Below, one piece after another: positions 3,102 to 32,450 of a DNA stretch of 37,528 nucleotides. The notes under the pieces were generated by a model. The model made no database searches. It had not been told where the DNA came from and worked only from the letters and a program-made list of their open reading frames with translations. Position 1 is the first letter of the stretch; every line of letters starts with the position of its first letter. Origin of the DNA: a virus. A program made the translations under genes and the position numbers. Location of the stretch: positions 1 through 37,528 of the IMG/VR virus record IMGVR_UViG_3300028840_002577. One strand, 5' to 3'.

Positions 3102-3148
3102 GCGCTATAGGCCATGTTGTTGCCATATAGCGCCGATAACTATAGCAA
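3102..3148 (-). promoter_or_regulatory. Inverted repeat GCGCTATA/TATAGCGC plus TATAGCAA
   Basis: GCGCTATA at 3102-3109 and TATAGCGC at 3126-3133 form a perfect 8-bp inverted repeat with 16 bases between. TATAGCAA follows at 3141-3148, which reads TTGCTATA on the minus strand. The cluster lies in the gap upstream of the HNH gene and belongs to a motif family found in other gaps of this genome. It may be a promoter or operator for the HNH gene; the factor is unknown. Confidence 0.5.
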
Positions 3149-3163
3149 AAGAAAGGTTTTTGG

Positions 3164-4036
3164 TCATTGCTCTTTCATGGCTGTGATCTTCCAAAACCCT
3201 ATTTGCTCTCTACGAAACTCATCGAGGTCCTTCTTATCGATGTTGTACTTTTCGCACACCTTGTCCCAGTCGATCGTCCCTTTTTGGCTGACGCGAGTAA
3301 GACGGATTCCATACCCTTGGCAGTTCCCATCATCGGTGAATTCTATGAGTTTATCTCGGTAGAATTTCTCTTGCTGCTTTGCATGTTCAAGCGTCTCTTT
3401 TGCTTGCTGCCATGCCAACGCATTTTCACCAAAGTCAGGGTCATCGATCTCAATATGATCTCGATTTGATGGCGCCGGGGGGTCATATTCTAGAAGACAG
3501 TTGCGAAACTGTAAAGCTTCCTGAAAGGTTTTCTCTATGAAGTCTTCATCATAGGGAACCTCTACCACGCAGAGGTCATCTGAGTTCCATGAGCAGTAGT
3601 AAGCCTCTCTGCACCCAGAGACAAACATCTGCCACTGCACTTGCGGATAGTATTTCTCAGGTAAACGGCCCTCCTTGGCCTCCGCATGGTCATCCTTGTT
3701 ACAGCATTTAATCTCGATCAATACATCATGTTCCTCATTATATCCATCTAAAGATGCAATGGCCCAGTCGTGTTCTTTGTGCTGCATGGTCTTATCGTCT
3801 AGCCTGTATCCCAGGCGCTGCTGCATCAACTCACGCACATGACTCTCGTTCTCATGCCCGAATCTCATCCCGGCATGCATCTGTTGCTCTGGCTCAAAGC
3901 CAAGCTTGCGTTTCCACAGAAGAAGCGGTGTGCAGTAAGGTGACACCCCAATGATAATCGGGATGTCACTTGCTCCGATCTTCTGCCTTCGCCATTCTTT
4001 CCACTCGTCTGTGTTTTGCTCAGGCAGATTAGACAT
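3164..4036 (-). CDS. YqaJ-type viral recombinase / lambda-type exonuclease
   Basis: The 290-residue protein opens with a WxxWRxxKIGASDIP segment near residues 12-26, the usual N-terminal signature of the YqaJ domain, followed by GxSPY near 30-34. The nuclease core of the PD-(D/E)XK fold is visible as E62, D97 in SLDG, and E108-x-K110 in IEIKC. Such enzymes degrade one strand of duplex DNA from an end, leaving single strand for an annealing protein. The partner annealing gene (Bet/RecT) lies upstream in the same operon, so the two form a phage recombination pair. GAGAGGAAA precedes the start. The C-terminal third is a charged helical region of less certain role. Confidence 0.93.
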   Translation of the reverse strand: MSNLPEQNTDEWKEWRRQKIGASDIPIIIGVSPYCTPLLLWKRKLGFEPEQQMHAGMRFGHENESHVRELMQQRLGYRLDDKTMQHKEHDWAIASLDGYNEEHDVLIEIKCCNKDDHAEAKEGRLPEKYYPQVQWQMFVSGCREAYYCSWNSDDLCVVEVPYDEDFIEKTFQEALQFRNCLLEYDPPAPSNRDHIEIDDPDFGENALAWQQAKETLEHAKQQEKFYRDKLIEFTDDGNCQGYGIRLTRVSQKGTIDWDKVCEKYNIDKKDLDEFRREQIGFWKITAMKEQ

Positions 4037-4463
4037 TTACTTTTCCTCTCTGTTCGGTTGTTCCAAAGAAACGTGAGAGGAGACGCCATAAAAAGAGATA
4101 AGGTTTAGCTCCTTGACCTTCTCTAGCTCCTCGCTGATAATCTTTAGACACTCTCTTTTGTCTAGTGTGGCAGCCTTGGGTCCTTTTAGGTAAGCTTCGA
4201 TGCAATTTTCGATCAAGCCAGTCAAAACAGACTTCTCCAAGATCGACACTTCTACTTGTACTTTCATGATATTCCTTGTGTTTAACGGTTAAAGAATTGT
4301 ATGTTAGTTCCGTGGATGGAGGGAACATGTCGCCGTATGAGTTTAACACGATTTCGCAGTCCGGATAAACCACAACTGGCTTGGTTCCCACCATTACAAT
4401 CTCTCTGAATGGTCCGAAGTTACTGAGCTTCAGATACGCATTCCTCCTCGTCTTTGTTTTCAT
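4029..4463 (-). CDS. Overlapping reading frame, only its first 65 codons plausible
   Basis: This frame starts inside the end of the annealing gene after GGAGAAGATG and fills the otherwise empty 4268-4419. Residues 1-65 look like ordinary protein (hydrophobic strand pattern around VMVGTKPVVVYPDCEIVLNS). From about 4267 onward it becomes Arg/Lys/Gln-rich and overlaps the 76-residue gene in another frame, so that part looks like a shadow. Either a short real gene overlaps its neighbour, or a frameshift (programmed or sequence error) joins the first half to the 76-residue product. Low confidence as a full-length gene. Confidence 0.3.
   Translation of the reverse strand: MKTKTRRNAYLKLSNFGPFREIVMVGTKPVVVYPDCEIVLNSYGDMFPPSTELTYNSLTVKHKEYHESTSRSVDLGEVCFDWLDRKLHRSLPKRTQGCHTRQKRVSKDYQRGAREGQGAKPYLFLWRLLSRFFGTTEQRGKVNV
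4037..4267 (-). CDS. Small hypothetical protein in recombination operon
   Basis: The 76-residue product is mainly helical, with a regular Leu/Ile pattern in residues 1-60 and no signal peptide. An AAGGA site precedes the ATG. Its stop codon directly abuts the exonuclease start, as expected for translational coupling. Small proteins in this position sometimes modulate the exonuclease or annealing protein, but nothing in the sequence shows that here. No family was recognised. Confidence 0.65.
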   Translation of the reverse strand: MKVQVEVSILEKSVLTGLIENCIEAYLKGPKAATLDKRECLKIISEELEKVKELNLISFYGVSSHVSLEQPNREEK

Positions 4464-5193
4464 TCTTCATCTTCTCCATTCTTACTTTCACAAACTTTCG
4501 GCAAGCCTCTAGTTGTGTTTCTTTTATCTCGTAAACACTCGTTACTTTACATAATTTCAAAACCTCTTTTCGTAAATCCTCATGACCATTGAGGTATTTA
4601 TCGATCTCTTCAGCCTTTTCCTTGCTAACGACCGCCTCAACTTTAGGAGCTGGTGCCACACGCGCATCGGCCTGGTCCATCTCTTCCTCGGTGTAAAGAC
4701 CACTGAGGTCAGCTGGGAACGCACGTCTAAGAGCGCGAGCCTCAGCACACTTTTCAATCATCACGTGAGGCATCTTGCGCCATAGACCCTGACCGGGATT
4801 GTATTCCTGAAGAAAAGCAGTCGCACTAATCTGGTGCCACATCCCATCAGCTGTCAGCTTCTTGACATATACCTTGGCTCCCATCAAACGGTTCTTGTCA
4901 TCATAGATAAACTGCGTGTCATCACCAGGCGCATACTTGCCCGTTCTCTCTGCCACAAGACGGAAGCCATCAATACCCGTCTGAATGCACATGCGACCTC
5001 CACGCTTAATCGCGTAGATTTGCTTGGCAATTGGATCGAGATTCACCTGCTTGCATACGTGAGCAAACACCATCAGCTCATCATGTGTCAGACCAGGAGC
5101 AATGACATTCTGGATAATTTTGGCCTGTTCAGATGACCAATATTGCTCGATAGCCATCGAACTCTCCTGTTTTGCCGGAACGTTGCTAGTCAT
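4420..5193 (-). CDS. bet: Single-strand annealing protein, Bet/RecT family
   Basis: The 257-residue product carries the family core in residues 35-90: GLTxDEL, the NLDP-x-AKQIYAIKR segment, and the GIDGFRLVAERTGKY block, close to phage Bet proteins. These proteins coat single-stranded DNA made by the partner exonuclease and anneal it to a complement. A CAEARALRRAFP block near 170-182 is also typical. The C-terminus is a charged tail that is poorly conserved in the family. The start at 5193 is chosen because AGGAGG lies just upstream; the frame extends 13 codons further without a site. The start overlaps the end of the preceding membrane-protein gene by 8 bp. Confidence 0.94.
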   Translation of the reverse strand: MTSNVPAKQESSMAIEQYWSSEQAKIIQNVIAPGLTHDELMVFAHVCKQVNLDPIAKQIYAIKRGGRMCIQTGIDGFRLVAERTGKYAPGDDTQFIYDDKNRLMGAKVYVKKLTADGMWHQISATAFLQEYNPGQGLWRKMPHVMIEKCAEARALRRAFPADLSGLYTEEEMDQADARVAPAPKVEAVVSKEKAEEIDKYLNGHEDLRKEVLKLCKVTSVYEIKETQLEACRKFVKVRMEKMKNENKDEEECVSEAQ

Positions 5194-5413
5194 TGTGACC
5201 TCCTGCGCGCTCAAGTTCATTAACCCACACAAACTGCTGTAAGTTGTTGATCTTCTCTTTATGGTTTATCAGCTCACCAGCAAGAGTCTTGTTGGCTTGC
5301 TCAAGATATACGCATCGATCGTACAACTCAGTCACGCATTCACGCGTTGTGTAAACTTGGGTGCCTAGTATTGCTACCATCCCAATCAGTAATGAGAAAA
5401 TTATTTTATTCAT
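5186..5413 (-). CDS. Small membrane-anchored coiled-coil protein
   Basis: The 75-residue product has one N-terminal hydrophobic segment (about residues 4-18) and then a polar helix with heptad-like Leu spacing (TLAGELINHKEKINNLQQFV). A cytoplasmic N-terminus with the coil outside is likely. It overlaps both neighbours by 8 bp in ATGA-type junctions, so it is firmly inside the operon. An i-spanin-like or inhibitor role is possible, but an early recombination operon is an odd place for a lysis gene. No family was recognised. Confidence 0.68.
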   Translation of the reverse strand: MNKIIFSLLIGMVAILGTQVYTTRECVTELYDRCVYLEQANKTLAGELINHKEKINNLQQFVWVNELERAGGHND

Positions 5414-5681
5414 ATCTAATCATTGCCTCTCGTTTTAATTGTTCAACTTCTTCCAATTCCATATCTTCCTCGTATTCCCAGCCGCACTCTTCAACGACTT
5501 GATCTCTGCACTCCTCAGAGCAGAGGGGATGTTCTTCCAAATGGTCCCACCAAGCGTAACGGACATCTGGGTTTTCACCATGCATTTCATCATGGAAAAC
5601 AAAGAATTCTTTGCAGCATGGGCATTCTTCATATGTGTACCTCTCAACGTGGGGTTCTAGTGGTGGTTCACTGATTAGCAT
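5406..5681 (-). CDS. Small acidic Cys-rich protein, probable zinc site
   Basis: The 91-residue protein is strongly acidic at its C-terminus and has Cys20, Cys22 and Cys23 early, with Cys54 and Cys58 later, a spacing that could bind one zinc. Trp45-Trp46 and aromatic residues lie between. It overlaps the next gene by 8 bp and the preceding one by 14 bp. Acidic zinc proteins in early phage operons often act on host proteins or mimic DNA, but this is only a suggestion. No family was recognised. Confidence 0.65.
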   Translation of the reverse strand: MLISEPPLEPHVERYTYEECPCCKEFFVFHDEMHGENPDVRYAWWDHLEEHPLCSEECRDQVVEECGWEYEEDMELEEVEQLKREAMIRYE

Positions 5682-5865
5682 TTTGGTCCTCCTCGATAAG
5701 CATTTCTAATCCTGCCTTGTAGAGCATGATCATTTGTTTCTGGGTGAGATACTTCTGACCAGACACCGCTGTGATGTAGTAAGCAGACTTGTTCTTGGGC
5801 ACGAAATACTCACTTGGGAAGCTTGGTCCGCGCTCTGTCATCTTGATAAACACTGGGGTATCCAT
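5668..5865 (-). CDS. First gene of leftward operon, 65-aa hypothetical protein
   Basis: This small protein has a Tyr-rich centre (YFVPKNKSAYYITAVSG) and a helical C-terminus. GGAG lies about seven bases before the ATG, about 20 nt after the predicted start of the leftward transcript. It is therefore likely to be the first protein made from this operon. It overlaps the acidic Cys-rich gene by 14 bp. No domain was recognised; an early host-interaction or regulatory role is possible but not shown. Confidence 0.65.
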   Translation of the reverse strand: MDTPVFIKMTERGPSFPSEYFVPKNKSAYYITAVSGQKYLTQKQMIMLYKAGLEMLIEEDQNANQ

Positions 5866-5891
5866 CGGGATCTCCTGTTAAAGTTACCTCT

Positions 5892-5920
5892 ATGATAGGG
5901 TGGTTGAGTATTTATCGCAA
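5892..5920 (-). promoter_or_regulatory. Leftward promoter for recombination operon
   Basis: On the minus strand TTGCGA (5920-5915) is followed after exactly 17 bases by TATCAT (5897-5892), a good sigma70-type promoter. Transcription would start near 5885 and run into the 65-aa gene after a leader of about 20 nt. Confidence 0.7.
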
Positions 5921-5923
5921 GGA

Positions 5924-5948
5924 AAAAGTTATCAGAGAGATAATTTTT
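5924..5948. promoter_or_regulatory. Dyad operator between divergent promoters
   Basis: AAAAGTTATC (5924-5933) and GATAATTTTT (5939-5948) are inverted arms of 10 bp with a single mismatch and a five-base centre. The dyad sits between the two -35 boxes (5915-5920 and 5953-5958), where a bound repressor could control both promoters. The product of the HTH gene at 6018 is the natural candidate. Confidence 0.6.
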
Positions 5949-5952
5949 CTTC

Positions 5953-5981
5953 TTGAACTCAAGCTATCTCTATGGTATTGT
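5953..5981 (+). promoter_or_regulatory. Rightward promoter for HTH gene
   Basis: TTGAAC (5953-5958) is separated by 17 bases from TATTGT (5976-5981), a sigma70-like pair. The predicted start near 5988 excludes upstream ATG codons at 5892 and 5982 and supports the ATG at 6018 as the real start of the HTH gene. TCTATGGTA overlaps the -10 box here and TCTATGATA overlaps the leftward -10, possibly a second operator set. Confidence 0.65.
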
Positions 5982-6017
5982 ATGAAGGAGCGAAAACTAA
6001 TCAGGTGGAATAGACGC

Positions 6018-6275
6018 ATGTTATTACGAGATTATTTAAAAACAGAAAACATCATGGTCAAGCATTTTGCTGAGATGATGGGTACTTCACCTACTTATTT
6101 ATCCCATATTTTGAAAGGAAGACGACGAGTAGGTATTGACCTTGCTAAAAAGATTGAGCAGTTAACGGATGGTAAGGTTAGTCGGGTAGAGGCCATTTAC
6201 CCTGAAGACTTTGAGGAGAAGAATGGGGAACACACCCAGATGAAATTTAACACTCATCCGAAGCCTAACCCTTAA
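6018..6275 (+). CDS. Cro/YdaS-like helix-turn-helix regulator
   Basis: The 85-residue protein has an HTH at about residues 13-36: helix VKHFAEMMG, turn, then recognition helix TSPTYLSHILKG followed by basic GRRRVG. This is the layout of small Cro-type DNA-binding proteins; the Pro/Lys C-terminal tail is unstructured. AGGTGG lies about eight bases before the ATG. It is the first gene to the right of the divergent control region and probably binds the dyad at 5924-5948. No partner CI-type repressor, antirepressor or integrase was found, so it is unclear whether it serves a lysogenic switch or only early-gene shut-off. Confidence 0.8.
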   Translation: MLLRDYLKTENIMVKHFAEMMGTSPTYLSHILKGRRRVGIDLAKKIEQLTDGKVSRVEAIYPEDFEEKNGEHTQMKFNTHPKPNP

Positions 6276-6287
6276 TATATAGCAATA
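6272..6287. repeat. TTAATATATAGCAATA motif, copy 1
   Basis: This 16-base string includes the TAA stop codon of the HTH gene and recurs identically at 7874-7889, again including a TAA stop. It contains TATATAGCAA, the complement of the TTGCTATATA found at 19140 and 32421. It lies just before a terminator hairpin. Confidence 0.55.
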
Positions 6288-6293
6288 AAAAAA

Positions 6294-6312
6294 GGGTATC
6301 GTTATGATACCC
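6294..6312 (+). terminator. Hairpin terminator after HTH gene
   Basis: GGGTATC (6294-6300) pairs with GATACCC (6306-6312) around GTTAT and is followed by CTTTAT. A run of seven A precedes the stem, so the reverse strand has a T run after the same stem and the element could work in both directions. It would limit read-through from the regulator gene into replication unless relieved. Confidence 0.65.
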
Positions 6313-6326
6313 CTTTATCGCAGACG

Positions 6327-6366
6327 GCATAAAGCCTCTATGATTTGGCGATCGTAGGCTTTATGC
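6327..6366. promoter_or_regulatory. Long hairpin upstream of replication gene
   Basis: GCATAAAGC (6327-6335) pairs with GCTTTATGC (6358-6366). After a two-base bulge, CTATGAT pairs with ATCGTAG, with one G-T pair, around a six-base loop. The total is about 16 bp of stem in a 147-bp gap between the HTH terminator and the replication gene. It has no T run, so it is not a simple terminator. It could be an RNA control element, an operator (it contains CTCTATGAT, like the early promoters), or part of an origin. Confidence 0.55.
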
Positions 6367-6422
6367 GATTGAAAACTGAAAGATGCGTGCTGTCTTGTAT
6401 CTTCACAACACTGAGGTGATTA

Positions 6423-7517
6423 ATGCAAGAATACCATAACACGCAAGAGAATACAACACAAGAATATCAATCCGTACCCTTCCTTTCCATCTGCGCAATA
6501 GCAGATTCGTACGAACACTCATTGACCATAGATAGAATACTTTACGAGATGACCGGCGACCTAGAGTCTGCTGCGATTATGTCCCGTTTGCGCTACTGGT
6601 TTTCTCCATCAAAGATAAACGGTCAGACAAGGGCCAAGTCTAGACACGATGGAAAACTATGGTTGGCGAGGAAAGATGATGAATGGGAAGAAGAAGCCTG
6701 TGTTCGTGTTAAGCAGATGCCGAGAGTAAAGAAACACCTCAAGAAGTTGGGGCTTGTGAACATTGCTATCTACAAATGGGATGGAAATCCGACCACTCAT
6801 TGGCACCTTAATGTTCAGAAGTTTACGGAGATGTACAATGAAACAATTCAAAAAATGATTTCGAAATACCCCAATGGGGAAAAAGGGGATACCCCAATGG
6901 GGAAAAAGGAAAACCCCCAACGGGGAAAGTCCATTAACAAGCATATTCCTCATGCATCTTCCTCAAGCTCGATAGAGCATATATGCGCCGAAGGCGAAAA
7001 TGCCTTTTCAGGAGAATTAGATGAATTAGGAAATGCTGTCTTCCACGAAACGTACAACCTCAAGGGTAAAGGTAAAGAAAACTACGATTCGCTCACAGAG
7101 GACCAGAAACGCGCTGTACGGCTATTACGCAATGTACCCCCTACCTCGAGTCAAGATTCCCGTTTTGAGCTCATCACGGCCTTTAATGTGGCTAGAAACA
7201 AGGGTCTTGATGGGGTTCGCAAAGCAATCATGGTCTACAAGCAGAGGTTGGAGAGAGGAGACACGCCTAATGTGATGGGCGCTTATCTTCTTAAGATCAT
7301 CAATGAAGGTCATGAACCATTGCCGGAACACGCAGATCAAAACAAACGAGCGTGGTTAGATAAGAAGAGCAAGTTTCCTCATGGGAGCTATGACGAGAGA
7401 TGGGATGGTGTGATCTTTCATTTTTATCCAAATCGGGAGTTGAACTACAGAATGTCACATGAGGTTTTTGTCACACAGCTTAGGAATGCATTCCAAGATT
7501 TGAAGGAGAGAGAATAA
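6423..7517 (+). CDS. Replication initiator-like protein
   Basis: The 364-residue protein has an N-terminal region (about 25-140) with the pattern of a winged-helix replication protein: AAIMSRLRYWF, then a DGKLWLARKDDEW segment, RVKKHLKKLGLV and HWHLN. A flexible linker at about 149-172 contains three Pro-x-Gly-Lys-type repeats, and a C-terminal helical domain follows. It is the first gene past the regulator, the place where lambdoid phages carry gene O. The linker DNA is an iteron-like array (6868-6932), so the origin may lie inside the gene. No helicase or helicase-loader gene was recognised next to it. The general role is well supported by position and form; the exact family is uncertain. 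Confidence 0.72.
   Translation: MQEYHNTQENTTQEYQSVPFLSICAIADSYEHSLTIDRILYEMTGDLESAAIMSRLRYWFSPSKINGQTRAKSRHDGKLWLARKDDEWEEEACVRVKQMPRVKKHLKKLGLVNIAIYKWDGNPTTHWHLNVQKFTEMYNETIQKMISKYPNGEKGDTPMGKKENPQRGKSINKHIPHASSSSSIEHICAEGENAFSGELDELGNAVFHETYNLKGKGKENYDSLTEDQKRAVRLLRNVPPTSSQDSRFELITAFNVARNKGLDGVRKAIMVYKQRLERGDTPNVMGAYLLKIINEGHEPLPEHADQNKRAWLDKKSKFPHGSYDERWDGVIFHFYPNRELNYRMSHEVFVTQLRNAFQDLKERE
6868..6932 (+). repeat. Iteron-like repeats inside replication gene, candidate origin
   Basis: ACCCCAATGGGGAAAAAGG occurs at 6868-6886 and again identically at 6891-6909. A third diverged copy, ACCCCCAACGGGGAAAGTCC, is at 6913-6932. The spacings are 23 and 22 bp, about two helical turns. Each copy holds a short inverted repeat CCCC-x3-GGGG and an A run. 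Repeats of this kind inside an initiator gene are the usual form of a lambda-type origin. The repeats also encode a repeated peptide, so selection could act on protein instead. Confidence 0.6.
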
Positions 7518-7553
7518 TGTATAGCACAATGAAGACAAAGGAGTTTGTGTATC

Positions 7554-7877
7554 ATGAAACCACGTTTCACTAAACACAAGTTTGGTGCCAAGCGTACGCA
7601 GACAGACGACATCAAGTTTGACTCAAAGCTAGAGGCTAACTACTACCGCAAGCTCAAGATGGCAGTTTCCTCCGGGGAGCTGCTCTTTTTTTTGCGTCAG
7701 CCGCTCTTTGATTTAGGAGGTGGGGTGACCTACAAGGCCGACTTTGCTGAGTATTGGGCAGACGGCGAGGTAAAGTTCACAGACGTAAAGGGTGTGGAAA
7801 CGAAAGACTTCGTTATGAAAAAAAAATTGGTTGAATCACTTTACCCTATTACTATAAATGTGGTAAAAAAGGTTTAA
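7554..7877 (+). CDS. DUF1064-type nuclease (PD-(D/E)XK fold)
   Basis: The 107-residue protein matches the DUF1064 pattern: FDSKLEANYY near 22-31, a strand ending in RQPLFDL near 49-54, YKADF at 60-64, and DVKG at 77-80 followed by a KKKL helix. E27, D63 and D77-x-K79 fit the catalytic set of a restriction-endonuclease-like fold. Members are common in phage replication regions and are thought to process branched DNA, perhaps as resolvases. AAGGAG ten bases upstream supports the ATG at 7554; a TTG at 7545 is too close to that site. The gene follows the replication gene after 36 bp. Confidence 0.85.
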   Translation: MKPRFTKHKFGAKRTQTDDIKFDSKLEANYYRKLKMAVSSGELLFFLRQPLFDLGGGVTYKADFAEYWADGEVKFTDVKGVETKDFVMKKKLVESLYPITINVVKKV

Positions 7878-7889
7878 TATATAGCAATA
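7874..7889. repeat. TTAATATATAGCAATA motif, copy 2
   Basis: This is identical over 16 bases to 6272-6287 and again includes the TAA stop of the preceding gene. Here it runs directly into AGGAG, the ribosome site of the next gene, so transcripts starting at or near TATAG would have a very short leader. Confidence 0.55.
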
Positions 7890-7899
7890 GGAGCCTCTC

Positions 7900-8049
7900 A
7901 TGCCCTTTGAGTCCGAAGCACAGAGACGTTTTATGCACGCTGTGAACCCTACTTTAGCGAAGGAATTTGAAAAGAAAACGCCGAAGGGAAAAAAGTTGCC
8001 TAAAAAAAAGAAGTCTCAGAGTGTGAGGGCCAAGGGGAAAAAGAAGTGA
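7900..8049 (+). CDS. Small basic phage protein (49 aa)
   Basis: The ATG at 7900 follows AGGAG at a good distance. The product begins MPFESEAQRRFMHA and ends in a Lys-rich tail. The opening MPF-x-SE-x-QRRF/Y is a recognisable signature of a family of tiny basic proteins found in many phages and mobile elements, whose role is not known; nucleic-acid binding is likely from the charge. It is shorter than the usual gene-calling cutoff. Its stop overlaps a GTG that could start the next gene. Confidence 0.72.
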   Translation: MPFESEAQRRFMHAVNPTLAKEFEKKTPKGKKLPKKKKSQSVRAKGKKK

Positions 8050-8057
8050 GAGCCGAT

Positions 8058-8755: not shown

Positions 8756-8762
8756 ATTAACC

Positions 8763-12009: not shown

Positions 12010-12048
12010 TTGCTATAAATTATGGTATAAGAAAGATATTTATAGGAA
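12010..12048 (+). promoter_or_regulatory. TTGCTATA ... TATAGGAA element
   Basis: TTGCTATA at 12010-12017 directly follows the terminase stop. A GATATTTATAG string ends in TATAGGAA at 12041-12048, just upstream of the next ATG. The same GATATTTATAG occurs in the capsid-operon upstream region. GGTATAAG at 12023 is a possible -10 box. This is one of the gap elements of the genome-wide motif family. Confidence 0.5.
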
Positions 12049-12056
12049 CGTAATTG

Positions 12057-16647: not shown

Positions 16648-16761
16648 CGTTACTATATAGAGTGCCTTTTCCCATAAAAACTTTCTAAATGCAACAGAAG
16701 ATGTATTATCAGACGTTAAAAGAGTACATATCGAAAAAAGATATCTTATCATCTAGGTAGT

Positions 16762-17930: not shown

Positions 17931-18505
17931 TAGAGAATTTCCTCTTTTTTAAGCTTGGCACCTTTAGCTGGTATTCCCCTGTATTGCAGATAGGTTTCTT
18001 CTGAGATGATTGCCATCTCTTTTATCTTTCCGCTCTTTAATACAGCAGCTACTTGGTAGAAATCACGGGCAATGTCTCTCACCCATTTGATGACCTTATC
18101 AGCCTCGGATATGTATATTTTTCCGACATTTTTGACCGCTTCCTCTGCTTCATGTACGATTTTCTTACATTGGTCTGCATTGTTCTTGTGAGAATTCTGC
18201 ACATCTACTAGGAGGCCCTTTGACTGATTGCGAATCTCCTCGATTGACTTGACGTACTTGTCTGCTGCAACTCCGATCTTCTTTTCCTGGTCCTTCAAAC
18301 GCCTCTTTATGTCCGCCACATCTTTCTTCTGCTTCTCTGCTGTTTTTGTTATCAGAGAGATAGCATCATCGAGTCTTTTCTGGTAATTGTACTCACGTTG
18401 TCTAAGCTCAATGATCACGCCAGACAGCGTATTCATCCGTTTGCTCAGAACAATGAGAGTCCCTGCCATGGTTAAAGTGGAAAGAGAGAGTATGACCTCT
18501 AGCAT
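17930..18505 (-). CDS. Membrane-anchored coiled-coil protein
   Basis: The 191-residue product has an N-terminal membrane helix (about 4-20, VILSLSTLTMAGTLIVL) and then a long Lys/Glu/Gln-rich coil from about 32 to 140. The C-terminal 50 residues are a short mixed region ending basic. It resembles RmuC-like or i-spanin-like architecture, but no catalytic domain is visible. It overlaps the previous gene by 7 bp and the next by 1 bp. An envelope role such as exclusion, lysis or host-cell remodelling is possible. Confidence 0.68.
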   Translation of the reverse strand: MLEVILSLSTLTMAGTLIVLSKRMNTLSGVIIELRQREYNYQKRLDDAISLITKTAEKQKKDVADIKRRLKDQEKKIGVAADKYVKSIEEIRNQSKGLLVDVQNSHKNNADQCKKIVHEAEEAVKNVGKIYISEADKVIKWVRDIARDFYQVAAVLKSGKIKEMAIISEETYLQYRGIPAKGAKLKKEEIL

Positions 18506-18690
18506 CTGGTTACCTCCTGGAGTTGTTGAAGTGTACGAATGTTTCGTACGATCCAGTCAGCTTTCTCATGCGTGATCTTGAGTTTGATCATGAGCATTGG
18601 AGCCGCTAGACGTCCAAAGTTGGCGTACATTTCGTGTATGACATTGGCTTCGTTCTCCGAAAGCCAATAGTTTTTGTCTTGTTTCTTCAT
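18499..18690 (-). CDS. Small helical protein, possible HTH
   Basis: The 63-residue product has the pattern WLSENEANVIHEMYANFGRLAAPMLMIKLKITHEKADWIVRNIRT, which reads as three helices, the second and third resembling a winged-helix or HTH pair. GAGGAAATGA precedes the ATG. It overlaps the coiled-coil gene by 7 bp. It could be a small DNA-binding regulator of the unit. No family was recognised. Confidence 0.55.
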   Translation of the reverse strand: MKKQDKNYWLSENEANVIHEMYANFGRLAAPMLMIKLKITHEKADWIVRNIRTLQQLQEVTRC

Positions 18691-18784
18691 TCATTTCCTC
18701 GAACATCACCTCAATGATGATCTCTAAAAGTTTACGCTTCTCGTCGGCGTTGTAGTCATTGAGTATGTTGCCCCATCTCGTCAT
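18566..18784 (-). CDS. Overlapping hypothetical frame, N-terminal half plausible
   Basis: From ATG 18784 the frame reads a helical segment (DEKRKLLEIIIEVMFEEMNEETRQKLLAFGE) that fills the 65 bp between two better-supported genes. Its last 40 codons overlap the 63-aa gene in another frame and look less protein-like (Ser, His, Gln). It may be a short gene with a run-out tail, or part of a frameshifted fusion. It overlaps the end of the SpoVG-like gene by 29 bp. Confidence 0.4.
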   Translation of the reverse strand: MTRWGNILNDYNADEKRKLLEIIIEVMFEEMNEETRQKLLAFGERSQCHTRNVRQLWTSSGSNAHDQTQDHA

Positions 18785-19073
18785 TGGCACTCTCCCTTTT
18801 TTGCTTTATGTGTTTGTCTATGGCCTTTTGCGCAGCAGACTGAAAACGATCGTTGCGATCCCTTTCGAACGCAAAGTAGGGAAAGTATTGAGCGTCGGCA
18901 TTTTCCTTTTCAACCTTCTTGCTTGGATACCCGACGAAGAAACCACCATTTTTCTTTCTAATGTACTTACAACCATTGAGGTGAAGTCCCCATTCAGGAA
19001 TGAAAAAATTCACCAATGCAACCACTGAAGATCGCTCGTCACCCGTTGGATAATAACTCGTTATCTCAAGCAT
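18756..19073 (-). CDS. SpoVG-like nucleic-acid-binding protein
   Basis: The 105-residue product has strands SSVVALVNFFIPEWGLHLNGCKYIRKKNGGFFVGYPSKK followed by PYFAFERDRN and a helix QSAAQKAIDKHI. The order, a basic beta-sheet with a K-x-GG-x-FV-x-YPSKK turn and then a C-terminal helix, is that of SpoVG family proteins, which bind DNA or RNA site-specifically. It is the first gene of the minus-strand accessory unit and could control that unit or the capsid operon on the other side of the gap. GAGGTGAAAA lies before the ATG. Confidence 0.6.
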   Translation of the reverse strand: MLEITSYYPTGDERSSVVALVNFFIPEWGLHLNGCKYIRKKNGGFFVGYPSKKVEKENADAQYFPYFAFERDRNDRFQSAAQKAIDKHIKQKRESANDEMGQHTQ

Positions 19074-19099: not shown

Positions 19100-19128
19100 A
19101 GGATATCTCGAAAGGAAATTTATAGCAA
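19100..19128 (-). promoter_or_regulatory. Leftward promoter for accessory unit
   Basis: On the minus strand TTGCTA (19128-19123) is followed after 17 bases by TATCCT (19105-19100), with a second TATCCT next to it. The predicted start near 19093 lies about 20 nt before the SpoVG-like ATG. The -35 box is part of the TTGCTATA motif. Confidence 0.5.
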
Positions 19129-19178
19129 CGAAAAAACCATTGCTATATAGAAACGATATTTATAGACAAAAAAAACCA
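19118..19178. repeat. Tandem ~40-bp TATAG repeats upstream of capsid operon
   Basis: ATTTATAGCAACG plus an A run and ACCATT (from 19118) is repeated about 40 bp later as ATTTATAGACAA plus an A run and ACCATT (from 19158). Between them lies TTGCTATATAG (19140-19150). TATAGCAA at 19121-19128 and TTGCTATA at 19140-19147 also form an inverted repeat around 11 bases. The element sits between the leftward accessory unit and the rightward capsid operon and probably controls one or both. Confidence 0.6.
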
Positions 19179-19199
19179 TTAAATACTATCTTGAATGCA

Positions 19200-19241: not shown

Positions 19242-19289
19242 TAGATTAAAGCTGTATGGGCGTCTCGCAAGCGCCAATTAAGAGGAAAC

Positions 19290-24497: not shown

Positions 24498-24498
24498 G

Positions 24499-25236: not shown

Positions 25237-27914
25237 TGCCTAAATACTCTCCTACAACCATCGCTTATCAAGAGAGCGGGCTGATCCGAGATCGGCAGGC
25301 TTATGTCACGCCAAACGATGCTTTCGTTCAGCTTGACAATGCCTACGTTTGGAGAGGAATCACCAAGAGACGATTGGGTTATGAACTTCTTGGAAGACTG
25401 AGACGAAATCTAACAACGTTCAGCTACTTTGACACAGGAGTATCTCCTTGGTCTTTCAATCTGTTGACCATCAGTGGAAGAGTTTCGAATGTTGACATCT
25501 CCGGAGCACCTACCCTAGTCGTTACCACTCCGGTGGCGCATGGTCTATCTAACGGCGATGACGTGGTTTTTACAGGTGTTGGGGGTACAACTCAGCTCAA
25601 CGGAAACACTTACACAATCGCCAATGTGACAGCGACTACCTTTGAGGTAACCCAAGCCGGACCAGGTGCCTACACTAGCGGCGGTTTCTGGATGTCAGAC
25701 CGTGCTTTGGCAGATGAACCCAATGCTGACATCGAATGCGGATCGGTAGTGATTGTTTTGGACCCAGGTGGAGGGAACGAGGAAACTCTCACTGACCAGG
25801 GTGATGGCACCATGACTAGCACAGGTCCAGCCACTGGAACGATCAACTATGTGACAGGGGCCATTACCATTACTCATACGTTGGGAGCGGGCGTAGCCAC
25901 CACAGTGTCTTATGCTTACCATCCCTGCTTGCCTTGCATGGGAGTGACCCAGAGGGAGCTCAATGCAATTAACGCTGAAGACACGATCTTTTTCGATCAG
26001 AAGTACGCCTATCAGTTTTCAGCTAGCACATTCGATGAGTTTCTTCCAGCTACAGGAATCAGCTGGAATAGCGACAACACGCAGTTTTTCTGGTGGACAA
26101 ACTACTGGAACGTCAATCAAAACAAGCTTTTCTGGGTGACCAATTTCAATGCTGGAGCAGGAGGTGATCCGATCCGTTACACAGACGGGACGACCTGGAC
26201 CAGCTTTTTACCGGCTCTTGATGGGGGCGCAACAACCTTCCTGCAACAAGCTTTAATGCTTATCCCCTATCGAGGCCGTCTCGTTGCGTTAAACACCTTT
26301 GAAGGTGCTACCCTAGCAGCTGCCACTCAAAACCCAAATAGAGCCCGTTGGAGCCAGAATGGGGACCCCACAGATCAGACCAACGGATGGAGGAGTGATG
26401 TACAAGGACGAGGAGGATTTGTCGACGCCCCAACAAACGAACATATTGTTAGTGCGGGATTTATCCGCGATACCCTCATCGTGTTTTTTGAAAGGTCAAC
26501 TTGGAAGCTGCGATACACAGGCAATGAGATTCTTCCTTTTGTCTGGGAGAGAATTAATATTGAGCTTGGTGCGGAATCTACCTTTTCAATCGTTCGATTT
26601 GACAAAGGAATCTTGGCCGTTGGTGATAAGGCCATTGTCACCTGTGATGGAAACTACGTAGAGAGAATCGATCAGGCAATCCGTGATGAGGTATTCAAGA
26701 TTCACAATGGCGATGATGGTGTAAAACGGGTACATGGAGTCCGGAATTTCTTCGAGCAGCTGGTTTATTGGGTATTTCCGTCAGCTGATGAAGACCCTAT
26801 CTACCCGAATCGTGTGCTGATCTACAACTATGACAATCAGACTTGGGCGTTTTTCCGAGATAGTTTTACCGCATTGGGCACTTTCCAACGAACATCAGAT
26901 GTGAGATGGTCAGACTTGGCAGGATTTAGCTGGCAAGAGTATATGAAAGCATGGAACGCCGGACGACAGCAAAGCCAGTTCCCTCTGATTGTTGGGGGAA
27001 ATCAGCAAGGATTTATCCAGATTTTCAATCAGAAGGTGGGTAGCGATGCATCCTTACACATTACAGCTATCGCCACGGGCACCCCTCCTACCATTACTTC
27101 TCCTGATCATAATCTCGTTAACGGTGATATTGTGGAGATCAATGGGATCGTAGGGACAACGAGCAGCTTGAACGGATTTAGGTACCGTGTAGTCAATGTG
27201 ACACAAAACACCTTTCAGATTCAGCAGAAGCCAAGATTCACGATTACGGCCATTAATACGGCCACTAATCAGGTTACGGCCACAGGAAACAACCTAAACG
27301 CTGGCGATCTCGTGCAGTTTGAAAATGTGGGGGGAACCGTTGAACTCAACGGACGAACCGGAACCGTTCTTGTGGGTGGCAACACTTTTACTGTCGACAT
27401 CGACATGTCTGGAATGACAGCGTTTACAGCAGGGGGAACCGCAGAGAATTGCAATGGAATCTTTAACGATGTGGTGGTTGCGGGTGGTTCTACCTATCTT
27501 GGATGTGGAGAGATTAGAGTCGTTTCCAACTTCGTGATTCGTTCGAAGAAATTCAACATGCTAAATCAAGGGAGGAAGACCCAACTTGGATACATGGACT
27601 TCTTGGTTGATGTTACTTCTAATGGCCAAATTAGTGTTCCTCTCTATGTGGATTACAATGAATCACAAAGAGTAAATCCACGTAGCGGTGACTCTTTCTT
27701 CAACTGGGGCATCAATACGAAGCCTCAGGACAATTCCACCGAGAACCAGGAAAAAGAGTGGCACAGATTCTACTGCCCAGTGGAAGCACAGTTCATCCAG
27801 TATGAGCTCACACTTGACGAATCTCAGATGATTTCCAAGGAGATTCAAGAGAGCGGATTCAATCTAAATGCTGCGATCATGTGGCATGAGAAAGGAGCGA
27901 GGTTGGTACAATGA
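25236..27914 (+). CDS. Large tail nozzle/hub-like protein with FCCH-like domains
   Basis: The 892-residue protein has a first FCCH-like module at about 85-145 (AHGLSNGDDVVFTGVGG ... TTFEV) and a GTINYVTGAITIT segment near 205. The central region is a propeller-like body (repeated IVFFERSTWKLRY, ILAVGDKAIVTCDGNYVERID and QLVYWVFPSAD), and two further FCCH-like modules follow at about 607-735. The central region resembles tail nozzle proteins (P22 gp10/T7 gp12 type). ATG 25236 overlaps the previous stop; an earlier TTG is not needed. It would extend the tail below the connector and anchor fibres. Confidence 0.68.
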   Translation: MPKYSPTTIAYQESGLIRDRQAYVTPNDAFVQLDNAYVWRGITKRRLGYELLGRLRRNLTTFSYFDTGVSPWSFNLLTISGRVSNVDISGAPTLVVTTPVAHGLSNGDDVVFTGVGGTTQLNGNTYTIANVTATTFEVTQAGPGAYTSGGFWMSDRALADEPNADIECGSVVIVLDPGGGNEETLTDQGDGTMTSTGPATGTINYVTGAITITHTLGAGVATTVSYAYHPCLPCMGVTQRELNAINAEDTIFFDQKYAYQFSASTFDEFLPATGISWNSDNTQFFWWTNYWNVNQNKLFWVTNFNAGAGGDPIRYTDGTTWTSFLPALDGGATTFLQQALMLIPYRGRLVALNTFEGATLAAATQNPNRARWSQNGDPTDQTNGWRSDVQGRGGFVDAPTNEHIVSAGFIRDTLIVFFERSTWKLRYTGNEILPFVWERINIELGAESTFSIVRFDKGILAVGDKAIVTCDGNYVERIDQAIRDEVFKIHNGDDGVKRVHGVRNFFEQLVYWVFPSADEDPIYPNRVLIYNYDNQTWAFFRDSFTALGTFQRTSDVRWSDLAGFSWQEYMKAWNAGRQQSQFPLIVGGNQQGFIQIFNQKVGSDASLHITAIATGTPPTITSPDHNLVNGDIVEINGIVGTTSSLNGFRYRVVNVTQNTFQIQQKPRFTITAINTATNQVTATGNNLNAGDLVQFENVGGTVELNGRTGTVLVGGNTFTVDIDMSGMTAFTAGGTAENCNGIFNDVVVAGGSTYLGCGEIRVVSNFVIRSKKFNMLNQGRKTQLGYMDFLVDVTSNGQISVPLYVDYNESQRVNPRSGDSFFNWGINTKPQDNSTENQEKEWHRFYCPVEAQFIQYELTLDESQMISKEIQESGFNLNAAIMWHEKGARLVQ

Positions 27915-28423
27915 CAAGTTTTTTACCTCCAGATTCCATTAACTCCTTCGTTCCAAACGACCTCATCATCCCCACAAACTTTGATGAGGCAAACCTTGTG
28001 CTTACGGATTATTTCCGTCAGACAGTGGATGCTCTCAATGACAAAGAGATCGCGCAGTACAGCACAACTGAGCTTGTGACTGGGCAAAAGTGGTTCATTC
28101 CTGGAGACCCGAACCAATACCGTTTCACCTATCGCAAGGTAATCGATTTTGGTGCTCTTCCAAATGCGGCAACGAAGTCAGTCGCGCATGGAATTACCAC
28201 GACCAACACGACCATTTTTACCAGGATCTTTGCCACAGCAACAGACCCTGCAGCATCAACCGTTAACCAAGCGATTCCCATCCCTTATGTGGACCCGAAC
28301 ACCTTGGCAAATGGCATTGAAATCAATGTAGATGCGACCAACGTGAATATAACAACGGCGGCCAACTACACCGCCTATACAACAACCTACGTCGTTCTGG
28401 AGTATATCCAGAATGCACCATAA
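27911..28423 (+). CDS. Virion structural protein
   Basis: The 170-residue product has an N-terminal helical region (residues 18-50) and a beta-rich C-terminal half ending NTLANGIEINVDATNVNITTAANYTAYTTTYVVLEYIQ. That ending (IEI-x-VD-x-TNV-x-ITT ... Y-x-T-x-YVVLEY) is familiar from small virion proteins encoded among tail and ejection genes of short-tailed phages. Its exact place in the particle is unknown. It overlaps the nozzle gene by 4 bp. Confidence 0.7.
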   Translation: MTSFLPPDSINSFVPNDLIIPTNFDEANLVLTDYFRQTVDALNDKEIAQYSTTELVTGQKWFIPGDPNQYRFTYRKVIDFGALPNAATKSVAHGITTTNTTIFTRIFATATDPAASTVNQAIPIPYVDPNTLANGIEINVDATNVNITTAANYTAYTTTYVVLEYIQNAP

Positions 28424-28437
28424 CCAAGGGGGCTGAT

Positions 28438-28965
28438 ATGGCTTTTGATTTGATGGATTGGCTCGTCGGGCATAGCCCCGAGAAGAAGCAATTTGAAACA
28501 CTCACCGGGCAACAGCAAGACTTTCAGAACATGATTCTGAACATGTTAGGAGGTCCTACCGGAATGGGATTTGATTTCCTTCAGCAAATTCTGTCTGGAG
28601 ATGAAGACGCGTTTAAAGATTTCGAGGCGCCAATCAAGCGTCAGTTTGAGCAGGAAGTAGTTCCTGGTATCGCTGAGCGTTTTGCTGGCATGGGAACAGG
28701 AGGCGCGCAAAACTCATCTGCTATGCAACAAACCATGGGACGAGCAGGAACAGAGTTGTCTCAAAATTTAGCGCAGCTACGTTCTGGGCTGAAAATGGGT
28801 GCTTTGCAGCAGCTACAAGGATTAATGCAACCTGGCATGCAGTCCGCGTTTGAAAACGTCTACGATCCTGGTTCTTACGGTATCGTTGGAGGAATGTTAC
28901 AAGGTGCTGGTGAAGGTGCAGGACAAGCAGCTGGAAAAGCTGGAATGCAATACTTTTTAGGTTAG
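28438..28965 (+). CDS. Internal (ejection) protein, small
   Basis: The 175-residue product is rich in Gln, Met, Gly and Ala, with amphipathic helices and a Gly-rich C-terminus (GGMLQGAGEGAGQAAGKAG). Such composition and the place after the tail genes and before two larger helical proteins match P22 gp7-type pilot proteins, which leave the capsid with DNA and help cross the cell envelope. AAGGGGG precedes the ATG. No diagnostic motif is present. Confidence 0.6.
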   Translation: MAFDLMDWLVGHSPEKKQFETLTGQQQDFQNMILNMLGGPTGMGFDFLQQILSGDEDAFKDFEAPIKRQFEQEVVPGIAERFAGMGTGGAQNSSAMQQTMGRAGTELSQNLAQLRSGLKMGALQQLQGLMQPGMQSAFENVYDPGSYGIVGGMLQGAGEGAGQAAGKAGMQYFLG

Positions 28966-28975
28966 GAGGAAAACG

Positions 28976-30478
28976 ATGGTACAGATTCTACCACGCTTTG
29001 ACCCAGGCGGTGAAATTGGGAAAGCTTTTGGCTCTGGACTCGGTCAGGGGGTTAGCAAAGAATATGACCGTCAACGCCTTCTGCAGGGGTTAAATTCTCT
29101 TAGCAATATCAAGCAAGAGGACCTGCAAAAGATGTCGTTCCCGGATCAGATGCAGACGCTCATGCGTCCATTTGTGGGGCTTCCAGGTGGTGAGATGATG
29201 ATCACCGAAATGATGCCTAAGTGGATGGAGTATCTCCAGAACATGGCCGACATCGCTCCTGAGGATCTTTCTGATCCATCGAATGATGCACCAGCTGATT
29301 ACACAGATGAGCAAAAGAGCCTGTGGTCTGCTACAGACAAGATTAATGAGGTGACAGGTGGTTCACAGCCTCCTAATCATCCTGAAGATGTCACTGAGGA
29401 AGTGAAAGAAACGGTCTATGGAAATGATCCTGAGCCGTTAACAAAAGTGGGTCCAAGCCGTCAGGGACTGCCTAACAACATGCCCGGACAGGTTCGTGAG
29501 ATGGCTGCTGTGTTTCCTGAAATCAGAGCGATGGCACTGAGAGGTAATCCACAGGGTCTTTCCTTTGATGAGAAGCTGAAGTATACCAACCAGCTCACTC
29601 AAAGACGCGTGCCCAAAGATCAAGCGATCCGTCGTGTAGAGGATCTTAGCAACTACCTGCAACAGCAGGCGGGAGCATTCCAGGACATACAAAACAAGGT
29701 GACGGAAGAAGCACAGTCAATCTACGGTGGAACACCTTACTACTCGATGTTTCAACGTCAGATGCAAGCAGAAGCAGATAAGCAGGTCGATGAGGGTTTG
29801 ATGGAGCCAAACAGTGTGATCAACGCTGCTAGGCAAAAAGCCAAGAACCTTGAGACTGTCATCAACAATGCACGGTCTGCTAAGGGTCGTCCAGTCTTTG
29901 AGATTGGAGTGGAAGACCGGCAAAAAGGATCAGCTAACTGGGTCGCCCCTTTGATTAAGAATGGGGAAATACAGACAGCAACTGAACTTTTGATGAAGAG
30001 TGACATCCCTCTTAAAGATGGAACGTCTGTACCTGGTCCGGACTGGGGTCCAGTTCGAGCAACTGAGATTGTGCAGAGTCAGTTGAAAGGATCGGATGTG
30101 ATTCCACGTACCATCAAGTTTGCTGAGTCACTTCCAGACATGAGAGTGGGAACCTTTGCACAAGATCCATTTGGAGGCGCAACACGCAGGAAGAAGGTAG
30201 CTAACCGAGGAATGCAACAGCTTGAGGATTACATCGTCAATGACCTGCAACCTCAAGATAGCTTGGTCCTTTTGAGAGCCTACGCCAAAGAAAAGGGTGT
30301 GGAAGAAGATGAGTTCCGCACTGTTTTGGAAAAGGCAAAGCAACGTCGAGGAGACGAGTTTAGCGAGTATCAGAATTGGGAGGAGAGCACACTTCTTCCT
30401 TATGACGTCAAGCCAAGTCTCTACGAGGTGTTTACTGGTAAGAGAAAATGGTCTGACTTTTGGCAGGGGAAAAAATAA
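28976..30478 (+). CDS. Internal (ejection) protein, medium
   Basis: The 500-residue product begins with a Gly-rich segment (FDPGGEIGKAFGSGLGQGVS) and is otherwise mostly helical and polar, with Gln/Lys-rich stretches in the middle (about 230-310). It lacks a signal peptide, and no lytic catalytic motif was seen. The position and helical character fit the second of three ejection proteins (P22 gp20-like role). AGGAGG precedes the ATG; the stop overlaps the next ATG by one base. Confidence 0.62.
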   Translation: MVQILPRFDPGGEIGKAFGSGLGQGVSKEYDRQRLLQGLNSLSNIKQEDLQKMSFPDQMQTLMRPFVGLPGGEMMITEMMPKWMEYLQNMADIAPEDLSDPSNDAPADYTDEQKSLWSATDKINEVTGGSQPPNHPEDVTEEVKETVYGNDPEPLTKVGPSRQGLPNNMPGQVREMAAVFPEIRAMALRGNPQGLSFDEKLKYTNQLTQRRVPKDQAIRRVEDLSNYLQQQAGAFQDIQNKVTEEAQSIYGGTPYYSMFQRQMQAEADKQVDEGLMEPNSVINAARQKAKNLETVINNARSAKGRPVFEIGVEDRQKGSANWVAPLIKNGEIQTATELLMKSDIPLKDGTSVPGPDWGPVRATEIVQSQLKGSDVIPRTIKFAESLPDMRVGTFAQDPFGGATRRKKVANRGMQQLEDYIVNDLQPQDSLVLLRAYAKEKGVEEDEFRTVLEKAKQRRGDEFSEYQNWEESTLLPYDVKPSLYEVFTGKRKWSDFWQGKK

Positions 30479-32277
30479 TGGGATTCATTGAAGAAGCCGT
30501 CAGGTACGGATATCAAGCAGAAGAAATCTTAAAGATGATTGCGTCTCACAACCCGCAATTCAAAGAGAAGGTGGATGAAGCCGTCAAGTATGGCTACACC
30601 CCCACTTCGATCCTCCGTGATATGGCGAGATTCTTCAAAGGAACAAGAGGGGAAAAGACTGCTAAGGTGATGGGAATCAACCCGAAGTGGTCAAGGAATC
30701 TCGCGTTCAGTGAGGATCTTGATCCCGCTACTGTCATCCCCGAGCAGATGCAACCAGACGATGCAGGACGTAGCTTTCGCGATACTCTTGGAAATGTAGC
30801 AGGCGCAGGAGCGGGAGCAGCCATAGGATTTGCAACGGGAGGCCCTGCGGGTGCCGTAGGTGGCGCAACGGCTGGGTCAGAGATGTATCAGAAGCTTGTG
30901 GATAAGTATCGCCAACAAGGGCGCTCTATGAGCTTTGGTGACTTTGTCAAAACACTTGCTTCAGCTGCTGCAAAAGGAACAGCTACCGGATTCTCCGCCA
31001 AGTTTTTGATGGACGTTCTGAAGAACCTTACCTCTGAACCCTCTGAACAGGTTGAAGGGGAAGTCGTTCAAGAAGAAGGAGTTGCACCTGTTACCCCAAC
31101 TCAAGAGGGTGCAGAGCAAGAAGTTCCTCCTAGCATGCCCGAAGAAAAAATCGAAGATGTGGTAGGCGCTGATAGCTATGAGATTTTTAGGGAAAGAGGC
31201 ATTGAGCGCATCATTGATAGCTTTGCTACACAGATCACTCCTGAGCAAGGGCGACGTGGATTAAGGAATCTCTTCGGTGCGCAATACGTCAAAGACATTG
31301 AAAGAGAGACCAAGAAGCCGATAGAGAAAGTCTTATCTGAAGCGTTTGAGTTTGCTAAGCAGAAAGGAGGAGGTGGAGGACGCTCCTCGTTTGTCGATCA
31401 AGCCATGGAAGGGATAGAATTTAGCAGTCTGCCACGTCCAGTGCAAAATCGTGTCCGCATGATTAACCAGCAGATCGAAAGACTAGAGAAGAAAGGGGTG
31501 CCCTATGACAGCAAGCGCATACAAAAACTGCTCAAAAAAAGAGACAAGTTCATCCAAGGTGAGGGACTCAATGTAGCTGAAGAAGAAGAGGTAAGATTTG
31601 AGAAAGCGTATGGTAAGTCGGATGAACAAACCACGATGCAACCAGAACAAAGTGAGGTGTTTACAGAGATTTTCAAAAGCAGAATCCCTGAAACCGAAGA
31701 GGCTGGCACTTTACAGAAAAGCGTTAAACCATTGGATAATTCTCTCAAGTCTTCCAACGTGGTCGGCGCCTTTTTCGATGCCGATACAAATAAGATGCGC
31801 ACTGTATTCCGATCTGGTGACATGTATGAGTACGATAATATTTCACTTGATGAACTAGAGAAAGTCACTGGAGGAAAAGCCAAACCGATCACAGAAGGGG
31901 CAACCCAGTACGGGTTTTGGTTCCCTGATAAAAAGAAGTCTGTTGGAGCTGCGTTTAGCAAGTTTATCAAGAAAAAAGCGGATGAGTTTCCCTATCGAAA
32001 GCTTGAGAAATCTGAGCTACGTCCCAATGAATCCCAGTTACGTGATGCCGTTCGCACCTTCAATACCTCTGGTATATTCGAACCGTTCAAGCAGTTCCGA
32101 AAAGGAGCACAGCAACTGGAAAAGGGTAAGATTCTTCGTGAGATGGAACCCGCATTGAAAGAAGTTGATGATGACTTTTTGCAGGAGATGGTCGCCATGA
32201 TTGAAAGTGAACTTGGATTAAAGACCCCGATTAAGATGACTAGGCTGCAAAAAGAATTTAGGAAGGAGTTTTTGTAA
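30478..32277 (+). CDS. Large ejection protein with KTSC domain
   Basis: The 599-residue protein starts with two similar helical units at about 5-22 and 33-50 (EEAVRYGYQAEEIL, DEAVKYGYTPTSIL). A Gly/Ala zipper at about 104-135 (GAGAGAAIGFATGGPAGAVGGATAG) could insert in a membrane. Residues 421-500 read as a KTSC-like domain (SSNVVGAFFDADTNKMRTVF-type strand, then SGDMYEYDNIS, YGFWFPDKK). The ATG at 30478 overlaps the previous stop; an upstream frame extension has no site. It probably forms part of the DNA-transfer channel; the KTSC role is unknown. Confidence 0.65.
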   Translation: MGFIEEAVRYGYQAEEILKMIASHNPQFKEKVDEAVKYGYTPTSILRDMARFFKGTRGEKTAKVMGINPKWSRNLAFSEDLDPATVIPEQMQPDDAGRSFRDTLGNVAGAGAGAAIGFATGGPAGAVGGATAGSEMYQKLVDKYRQQGRSMSFGDFVKTLASAAAKGTATGFSAKFLMDVLKNLTSEPSEQVEGEVVQEEGVAPVTPTQEGAEQEVPPSMPEEKIEDVVGADSYEIFRERGIERIIDSFATQITPEQGRRGLRNLFGAQYVKDIERETKKPIEKVLSEAFEFAKQKGGGGGRSSFVDQAMEGIEFSSLPRPVQNRVRMINQQIERLEKKGVPYDSKRIQKLLKKRDKFIQGEGLNVAEEEEVRFEKAYGKSDEQTTMQPEQSEVFTEIFKSRIPETEEAGTLQKSVKPLDNSLKSSNVVGAFFDADTNKMRTVFRSGDMYEYDNISLDELEKVTGGKAKPITEGATQYGFWFPDKKKSVGAAFSKFIKKKADEFPYRKLEKSELRPNESQLRDAVRTFNTSGIFEPFKQFRKGAQQLEKGKILREMEPALKEVDDDFLQEMVAMIESELGLKTPIKMTRLQKEFRKEFL

Positions 32278-32411
32278 TGGCAATATCAGACAAATTGAAA
32301 GGAATGCTCGAAGGCTATTTGAAAGAAATGAACGAAAAAGAGATGCGTCTTGCTCTGCAAGCCATGAAACAAGAGCAAAAGCGAAGAAAAAGGAAGAAGA
32401 AAAAAAAGTAG
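32277..32411 (+). CDS. Small basic helical protein (44 aa)
   Basis: The ATG overlaps the stop of the ejection protein gene. The product is one amphipathic helix (LKGMLEGYLKEMNEKEMRLALQ) and then a tail almost entirely Lys and Arg. It is too short for common gene finders. DNA binding inside the head, or a small structural role with the ejection proteins, is possible. It is followed by an intergenic TTGCTATA/TATAGCAA element. Confidence 0.55.
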   Translation: MAISDKLKGMLEGYLKEMNEKEMRLALQAMKQEQKRRKRKKKKK

Positions 32412-32420
32412 TTTGATACA

Positions 32421-32450
32421 TTGCTATATAGAAGACAATCTTTATAGCAA
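32421..32450 (+). promoter_or_regulatory. Perfect inverted repeat TTGCTATA/TATAGCAA
   Basis: TTGCTATA at 32421-32428 and TATAGCAA at 32443-32450 are perfect inverted arms around 14 bases, in the short gap before the first fibre gene. TTGCTATATAGAA is shared with 19140-19152. It is likely to control the fibre operon; whether as a promoter or an operator is unknown. Confidence 0.6.

Follow-up and report, generated by a model that had tools for sequence, protein, structure and literature searches.

The TTRCTATA word in the phage genome and its lineage

The window analyzed here, the whole 37,528-nucleotide stretch of the IMG/VR virus record IMGVR_UViG_3300028840_002577, is a complete phage genome, in which the terminal repeat measures 144 bp. 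Its genes include those for a P22-like portal, RecE/RecT-like and DnaD-like proteins, and a helix-turn-helix (HTH) regulator, and the spaces between them carry a dispersed short word, TTGCTATA, which is the subject of this work. A capsid search identified at least 539 related loci in IMG/VR. The nearest complete relative, G010 (38,010 bp, 127-bp end repeat), is broadly syntenic with the window, and its capsid and terminase are 89% and 76% identical to those of the window; a second relative, G001, has a capsid 86% identical and keeps the structural genes in the same order. A DNA-level search of a phage collection with positions 8001 to 33000 of the window returned no relatives, and a long-pattern motif scan of viral contigs matched only a fragment of the window's own phage.

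Eight matches to TTGCTATA are found, at 3141(-), 6278(-), 7880(-), 12010(+), 19121(-), 19140(+), 32421(+), and 32443(-), compared with a mean of 0.87 and a maximum of 3 in dinucleotide shuffles. A preliminary description of this DNA had listed six of these positions exactly and had placed 6278 and 7880 two bases off, at 6280 and 7882; its statement that the longer TTGCTATATA occurs four times, far above chance, is confirmed (0.08 expected). It had also located the sites between genes, and all eight do lie within 1,229 bp of hand-set intergenic DNA, the one at 7880 directly after the rusA-like stop codon; TATAGCAA is the top-ranked 8-mer of these gaps. The count of eight requires the HNH gene to start at AGGAGG-ATG, near 3078, instead of at the longer open reading frame (ORF) start at 3126, and an automatic gene caller, which takes the longer ORFs, leaves six of the eight in gaps. 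The gaps are AT-rich (39% G+C), as would suit an origin of the repeats in chance or base composition, but a Markov null for the gaps gives a mean of 0.08 and a maximum of 2 against the eight observed, and a variant of the word recurs in G010; the counts already refute this explanation, to which we attach practically no probability.

In an unbiased count of intergenic 8-mers over 20 genomes, the most enriched word of G010 is TTACTATA, a one-base variant of TTGCTATA, and we therefore define the element of the window/G010 lineage as TTRCTATA, with G or A at R; the next two bases are usually AA or TA. Allowing the R variant brings the window to 10 sites, the additional ones being 7849(+), which falls within the rusA-like ORF at its 3′ end, and 16650(+). 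The G010 sites occur at the orthologous HNH, DUF551-like, 7900-like, fibre-like, and early leftward starts. The same count gave no comparable enriched element in relatives outside the G010 lineage. Of the seven copies of TTGCTATA in G001, a single one is intergenic, and the orthologous starts carry none. Relatives that retain the gene order and lack the motif, which the preliminary description had named as a finding that would refute its reading, thus exist in G001 and the wider family, and the element is therefore confined to one small lineage. Such signals would appear to change fast, the architecture being kept with a G/A swap in sister phages and lost in slightly more distant syntenic relatives.

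The enriched intergenic word of G001 itself, GCTTTACA/TGTAAAGC, belongs mostly to a hairpin family at two places and is not a counterpart of TTRCTATA; the repeated hairpin, GGCTTTACA..TGTAAAGCC, lies at 41 to 75 and 7563 to 7604 of that genome (locus L025, window orientation), and the copy beside a poly-A/T run may be a terminator. The words CCAGTAT and CTATAAA formed no dispersed set in nine more distant relatives, and a generic search for inverted pairs across the 20 genomes was swamped by A/T words.

Inverted pairs and their helical spacing

The sites and partner half-sites in the window are as follows (a strand is given where one is assigned).

3120 to 3127: inverted partner TTGCCATA on the plus strand, one mismatch, N13 from 3141; G010 has the same pair at 29032/29054, with N14
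3141 to 3148, minus strand: 5′ half TTGCTATA before the HNH gene, kept in G010 at 29054
6278 to 6285, minus strand: TTGCTATATA, flanked by the HTH stop codon and a terminator-like hairpin, without a spaced partner
7849 to 7856, plus strand: R-variant 5′ half TTACTATA ahead of gene 7900, within the 3′-terminal part of the rusA-like ORF
7880 to 7887, minus strand: 3′ half reading TATAGCAA on the plus strand, N23 from 7849
12010 to 12017, plus strand: 5′ half TTGCTATA before the DUF551-like gene
12041 to 12048: 3′ half TATAGGAA, one mismatch, N23 from 12010, overlapping the AGGA ribosome site
16650 to 16657, plus strand: TTACTATA in a large intergenic gap, without a partner
19121 to 19128, minus strand: 5′ half TTGCTATA for the leftward SpoVG-like gene
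19140 to 19147, plus strand: TTGCTATA upstream of the scaffold gene
19161 to 19168: weak third half-site TATAGACA, two mismatches, N13 from 19140, overlapping the -35-like TAGACA
32421 to 32428, plus strand: 5′ half TTGCTATA before the fibre-like gene 32469
32443 to 32450, minus strand: 3′ half reading TATAGCAA on the plus strand, N14 from 32421

A frequent architecture among these sites is an inward inverted pair, TTRCTATA-N-TATAGYAA. When the two halves together are allowed no more than one mismatch and N must be at least 11, the window contains four pairs (3120/3141, N13; 7849/7880, N23; 12010/12041, N23; 32421/32443, N14), with a weak fifth at 19140/19161 (N13), and G010 contains five (471/491, N12; 20364/20405, N33; 24272/24293, N13; 29032/29054, N14; 34069/34088, N11), whereas shuffled genomes yield 0.17 (window) and 0.33 (G010) inward pairs of any spacing per genome. 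The spacings of 11 to 14, 23, and 33 correspond to center distances of 19 to 22, 31, and 41 bp, or about 2, 3, and 4 helical turns; the clustering in helical phase (R = 0.86) has a P value of about 0.0003 against uniform spacing and of 0.001 on seven less dependent spacings. At two orthologous starts the spacing differs by about one turn, from N23 at 12010 to N12 at G010 471 and from N23 at 7849 to N11 at G010 34069, which hints, more strongly than any other single observation, that a bound factor may have to sit on one face of the DNA.

Paired halves of this kind could also act as mRNA hairpins in processing or translation control. The arrangement TTGCTATA-N14-TATAGCAA at 32421 is able to form a stem, and G010 keeps TTACTA...TAGTAA there; however, the R/Y position is unpaired at 12010/12041, 7849/7880, and G010 471/491, the loops of N23 and N33 are long, and half-sites occur on both strands and as singles. 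Because the R/Y position does not covary between the halves, a transcribed RNA stem is unlikely and DNA half-sites are favored; the hairpin reading was rejected on this ground and seems to us very improbable. Enrichment, location in gaps, the G010 variant at orthologous promoters, and frequent pairing together give good support to the earlier proposal of a dispersed regulatory element at unit boundaries. That proposal had recognized a real element and had missed its G/A variant, its pairing and phasing, and the separate operators of the HTH gene.

Operator half-site or core promoter element

We tentatively favor, at somewhat less than an even chance, the reading that TTRCTATA is a half-site recognized by a single dedicated DNA-binding factor, which the phage probably encodes and which would control start regions; this corresponds to the "unknown phage regulator" among the options raised in the preliminary description. 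The word is enriched and intergenic, it is retained as a G/A variant in a sister phage, and its inverted halves are spaced in phase, with a shift of about one turn between orthologues. The element would be specific to the lineage and would lie at the start regions of most transcription units. One protein would bind both halves and, acting on initiation, would repress or gate early and late units together; activation is the less likely alternative.

The only clear regulator gene found in the phage is that of the HTH protein, and a degenerate form of the element lies beside it, among palindromes of a different sequence.

5892 to 6275, plus strand: Cro/CI-type HTH regulator gene (HTH_3, weakly YdaS-like), the true start probably internal
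5884 to 5898: putative HTH-repressor operator 1, TTACCTCTATGATAG, which is not the motif
5929 to 5943: putative HTH-repressor operator 2, TTATCAGAGAGATAA
5964 to 5978: putative HTH-repressor operator 3, CTATCTCTATGGTAT
5910 to 5920, minus strand: TTGCGATAAAT, a degenerate copy of the element that is flanked by two HTH-type operators at the early leftward start and matched in G010 by TTGCTATAAAT (31419, minus strand)

If the TTRCTATA sites were dispersed operators of this HTH protein, the position of site 6278 just after its stop codon would fit. However, the HTH/recT divergent region of each phage carries three palindromes of 13 to 15 bp (at 5884, 5929, and 5964 in the window, where all three around the HTH/early leftward start are of 15 bp, and at 31391, 31436, and 31490 in G010). 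These are quite different from TTRCTATA, as expected for the protein's own operators, and are likely to be its CI/Cro-type operators. Clustering of palindromes at the regulator's divergent promoter, the mark of a Cro/CI system, is accordingly seen for them and not for TTRCTATA. Since the palindromes differ from TTRCTATA, the HTH protein is an unlikely binder of the word and was rejected as such. HTH relatives are, moreover, present in G001, G015, G016, and G022, where TTRCTATA is not enriched, and we consider this explanation quite improbable.

A close rival, which we hold to be possible though less than probable, is that TTRCTATAWA is a core promoter element, either of the extended -10 type or a -10-like box read by a noncanonical sigma factor; the repeats would then be the phage's strong start signal in its host, and the inverted copies would be antisense starts or coincidence. 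The 5′ halves before the HNH (3141, minus strand), SpoVG-like (19121, minus strand), 7900, DUF551-like, and fibre-like genes face the gene that follows, mostly where a -10 would be expected and with a leader of about 30 to 55 nt, and to this extent the earlier remark that the sites look like a start region holds. A box reading TTGC(T/G)ATAAAT lies with the same geometry between two HTH palindromes at the early leftward start of both phages, and -10-like boxes occur near the ribosome site before the fibre-like gene in G001 (TGTTAAAAT) and G015 (TGGTATATC). As in the extended -10 of sigma70, TTGCTATA reads TGnTATA at a -10-like place; unlike it, the motif has no -35, its hexamer is usually TATAWA, and its TG is often TA (lost in the TTAC variants). 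A -35 hexamer placed 15 to 19 nt upstream of the motif is not enriched (best-match sum of 36, versus 32.6 in shuffled sequence; P = 0.13), and a canonical sigma70 -35/-10 promoter was rejected for want of it. The sixth base of the would-be -10 is mostly A and rarely T, with T only at the orthologous HNH sites. A core promoter also leaves the inverted partners and their phased spacing unexplained, and a conserved promoter at another place seems to serve the scaffold gene.

Several observations weigh against the half-site reading. The placement of most 5′ halves at the -10 position, pointing into a gene, is explained equally well by a core promoter element, and the box between the HTH operators fits one too. 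Only two independent genomes, the window and G010, carry the element, and half of the pairs are orthologous; few independent events underlie the phasing, which was seen first and tested afterward; sites 6278 and 16650 and several in G010 have no partner; and for the binder there are candidates only. The suggestion that another element's polymerase reads the sites found no support: Pfam and NCBIfam scans of 40 small ORFs revealed no phage RNA polymerase or sigma factor, and a promoter alone would not account for inverted pairs in helical phase.

The apparent separate promoter of the scaffold gene was flagged by a consensus scan.

19163 to 19192, plus strand: putative sigma70-like scaffold promoter, TAGACA-N18-TATCTT

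Inspection by eye of the region upstream of the scaffold gene shows a similar arrangement in several relatives, with a TAGAC(A/T)-like or, more broadly, T(A/G)GAC(A/T) box at the -35-like place and, after it, a -10-like hexamer resembling TATNTT. Just before the scaffold ribosome site there is also a conserved leader hairpin (19259 to 19275 in the window, and in relatives) with the loop TCGC(C/A)A and variable stems; a stem of at least 4 bp is found in 37 of 71 relatives versus 0.12 in shuffled leaders, with 19 different stems. Rfam gave no match in the window at gathering score, and the hairpin may be a new RNA element that controls the scaffold or the capsid.

Candidate binders and known dispersed operators

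For the half-site reading, two proteins are the best candidate binders, encoded side by side on the minus strand.

18499 to 18690, minus strand: 63-amino-acid three-helix protein (predicted structure), candidate binder
18756 to 19073, minus strand: SpoVG-fold protein, candidate binder, adjoining two sites (mean pLDDT of 83.8)

The best Foldseek match of the latter is the SpoVG structure 2i9x (E value of 5.6e-3, probability of 1.00, TM score of 0.70 on the target), so the predicted fold is that of the SpoVG family. SpoVG homologues are reported to recognize different short motifs, present in two or more copies in the bound DNAs, and to owe their differences in specificity to six helix residues (PMC3688583); the phage protein, a candidate for such binding, is encoded beside two TTRCTATA sites. 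Between the window and G010, 14 of the first 16 helix residues are identical, versus 42 of the 70 residues before the helix, and these 16 differ in the other relatives; the observation amounts to no more than a correlation in a single pair of sister phages. In six relatives (L045, L067, L089, L056, L047, and L048) the SpoVG-like protein has an SSB-like acidic C-terminal tail (DDGCPF, EIPF) that is absent from the window and G010. The 63-amino-acid protein is found only in the window phage and G010; its matches are all weak, and many of them are homeodomain- and Myb-type DNA-binding domains. That either protein is a genome-wide regulator bridging 8-bp half-sites 2, 3, or 4 turns apart at nearly every start region is unlikely on present evidence; if so, it would constitute a new type of phage control circuit beside the separate Cro/CI-type switch.

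Dispersed regulatory sites are already known in phages, and what is new here is the word and its turn-phased inverted pairs. To our knowledge, dispersed operators built on a single word are known in few phages (P1 and the L5 group). The C1 operators of P1 are asymmetric 17-bp sequences, ATTGCTCTAATAAATTT, at 22 dispersed sites (PMC8546580). Like the element described here, they are asymmetric and lie at the promoters of many units, singly or as inverted (bivalent) pairs, and their opening bases, ATTGCT..TA, resemble the motif. However, P1 sites read ATTGCTCTAAT, whereas the shared site of the window, (A)TTRCTATAWA, is shorter and lacks the conserved 3′ part, and flexible turn-phased pairs are not annotated for P1. 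Relatives of P1 C1 and Lpa were not found in the window or G010 (best E values of 2.0 and 0.25; C1 by tblastn), and both were rejected as the binder for lack of a homologue. The operators and stoperators of the L5 type are 13-bp asymmetric sites at which elongation is halted through the binding of a two-domain monomer (PMC9283540). They share with the present element the repetition of one short asymmetric word in short intergenic spaces across the genome, oriented with transcription, as the 5′ halves in the window are, but L5 sites act as single asymmetric words, whereas inverted pairs at start regions are common in the window. Because a C1 relative is lacking, the 3′ part of the P1 site differs, and L5 words are single, we assign the element to neither family.

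If the half-site reading is correct, the element would be another case of dispersed operators, in an environmental phage family for which public viral contigs supply at least 539 relatives and no isolate matches at the DNA level, and it would add the rule that half-sites are paired at whole-turn spacing. The analysis yields a concrete list of putative operators and two candidate binders. As to the host, capsid relatives L110, L111, and L112 occur in metagenome-assembled genomes labeled Simkaniaceae, Parachlamydia, and Methanomicrobiales, which may be a lead, with misbinning possible; TTGCTATA is not enriched in the three candidate host genomes relative to a reversed control. The capsid matches of L111 (10001 to 11262) and L112 (10001 to 11376) are about 300 to 430 nt longer than the gene length, which suggests an insertion in the capsid gene.

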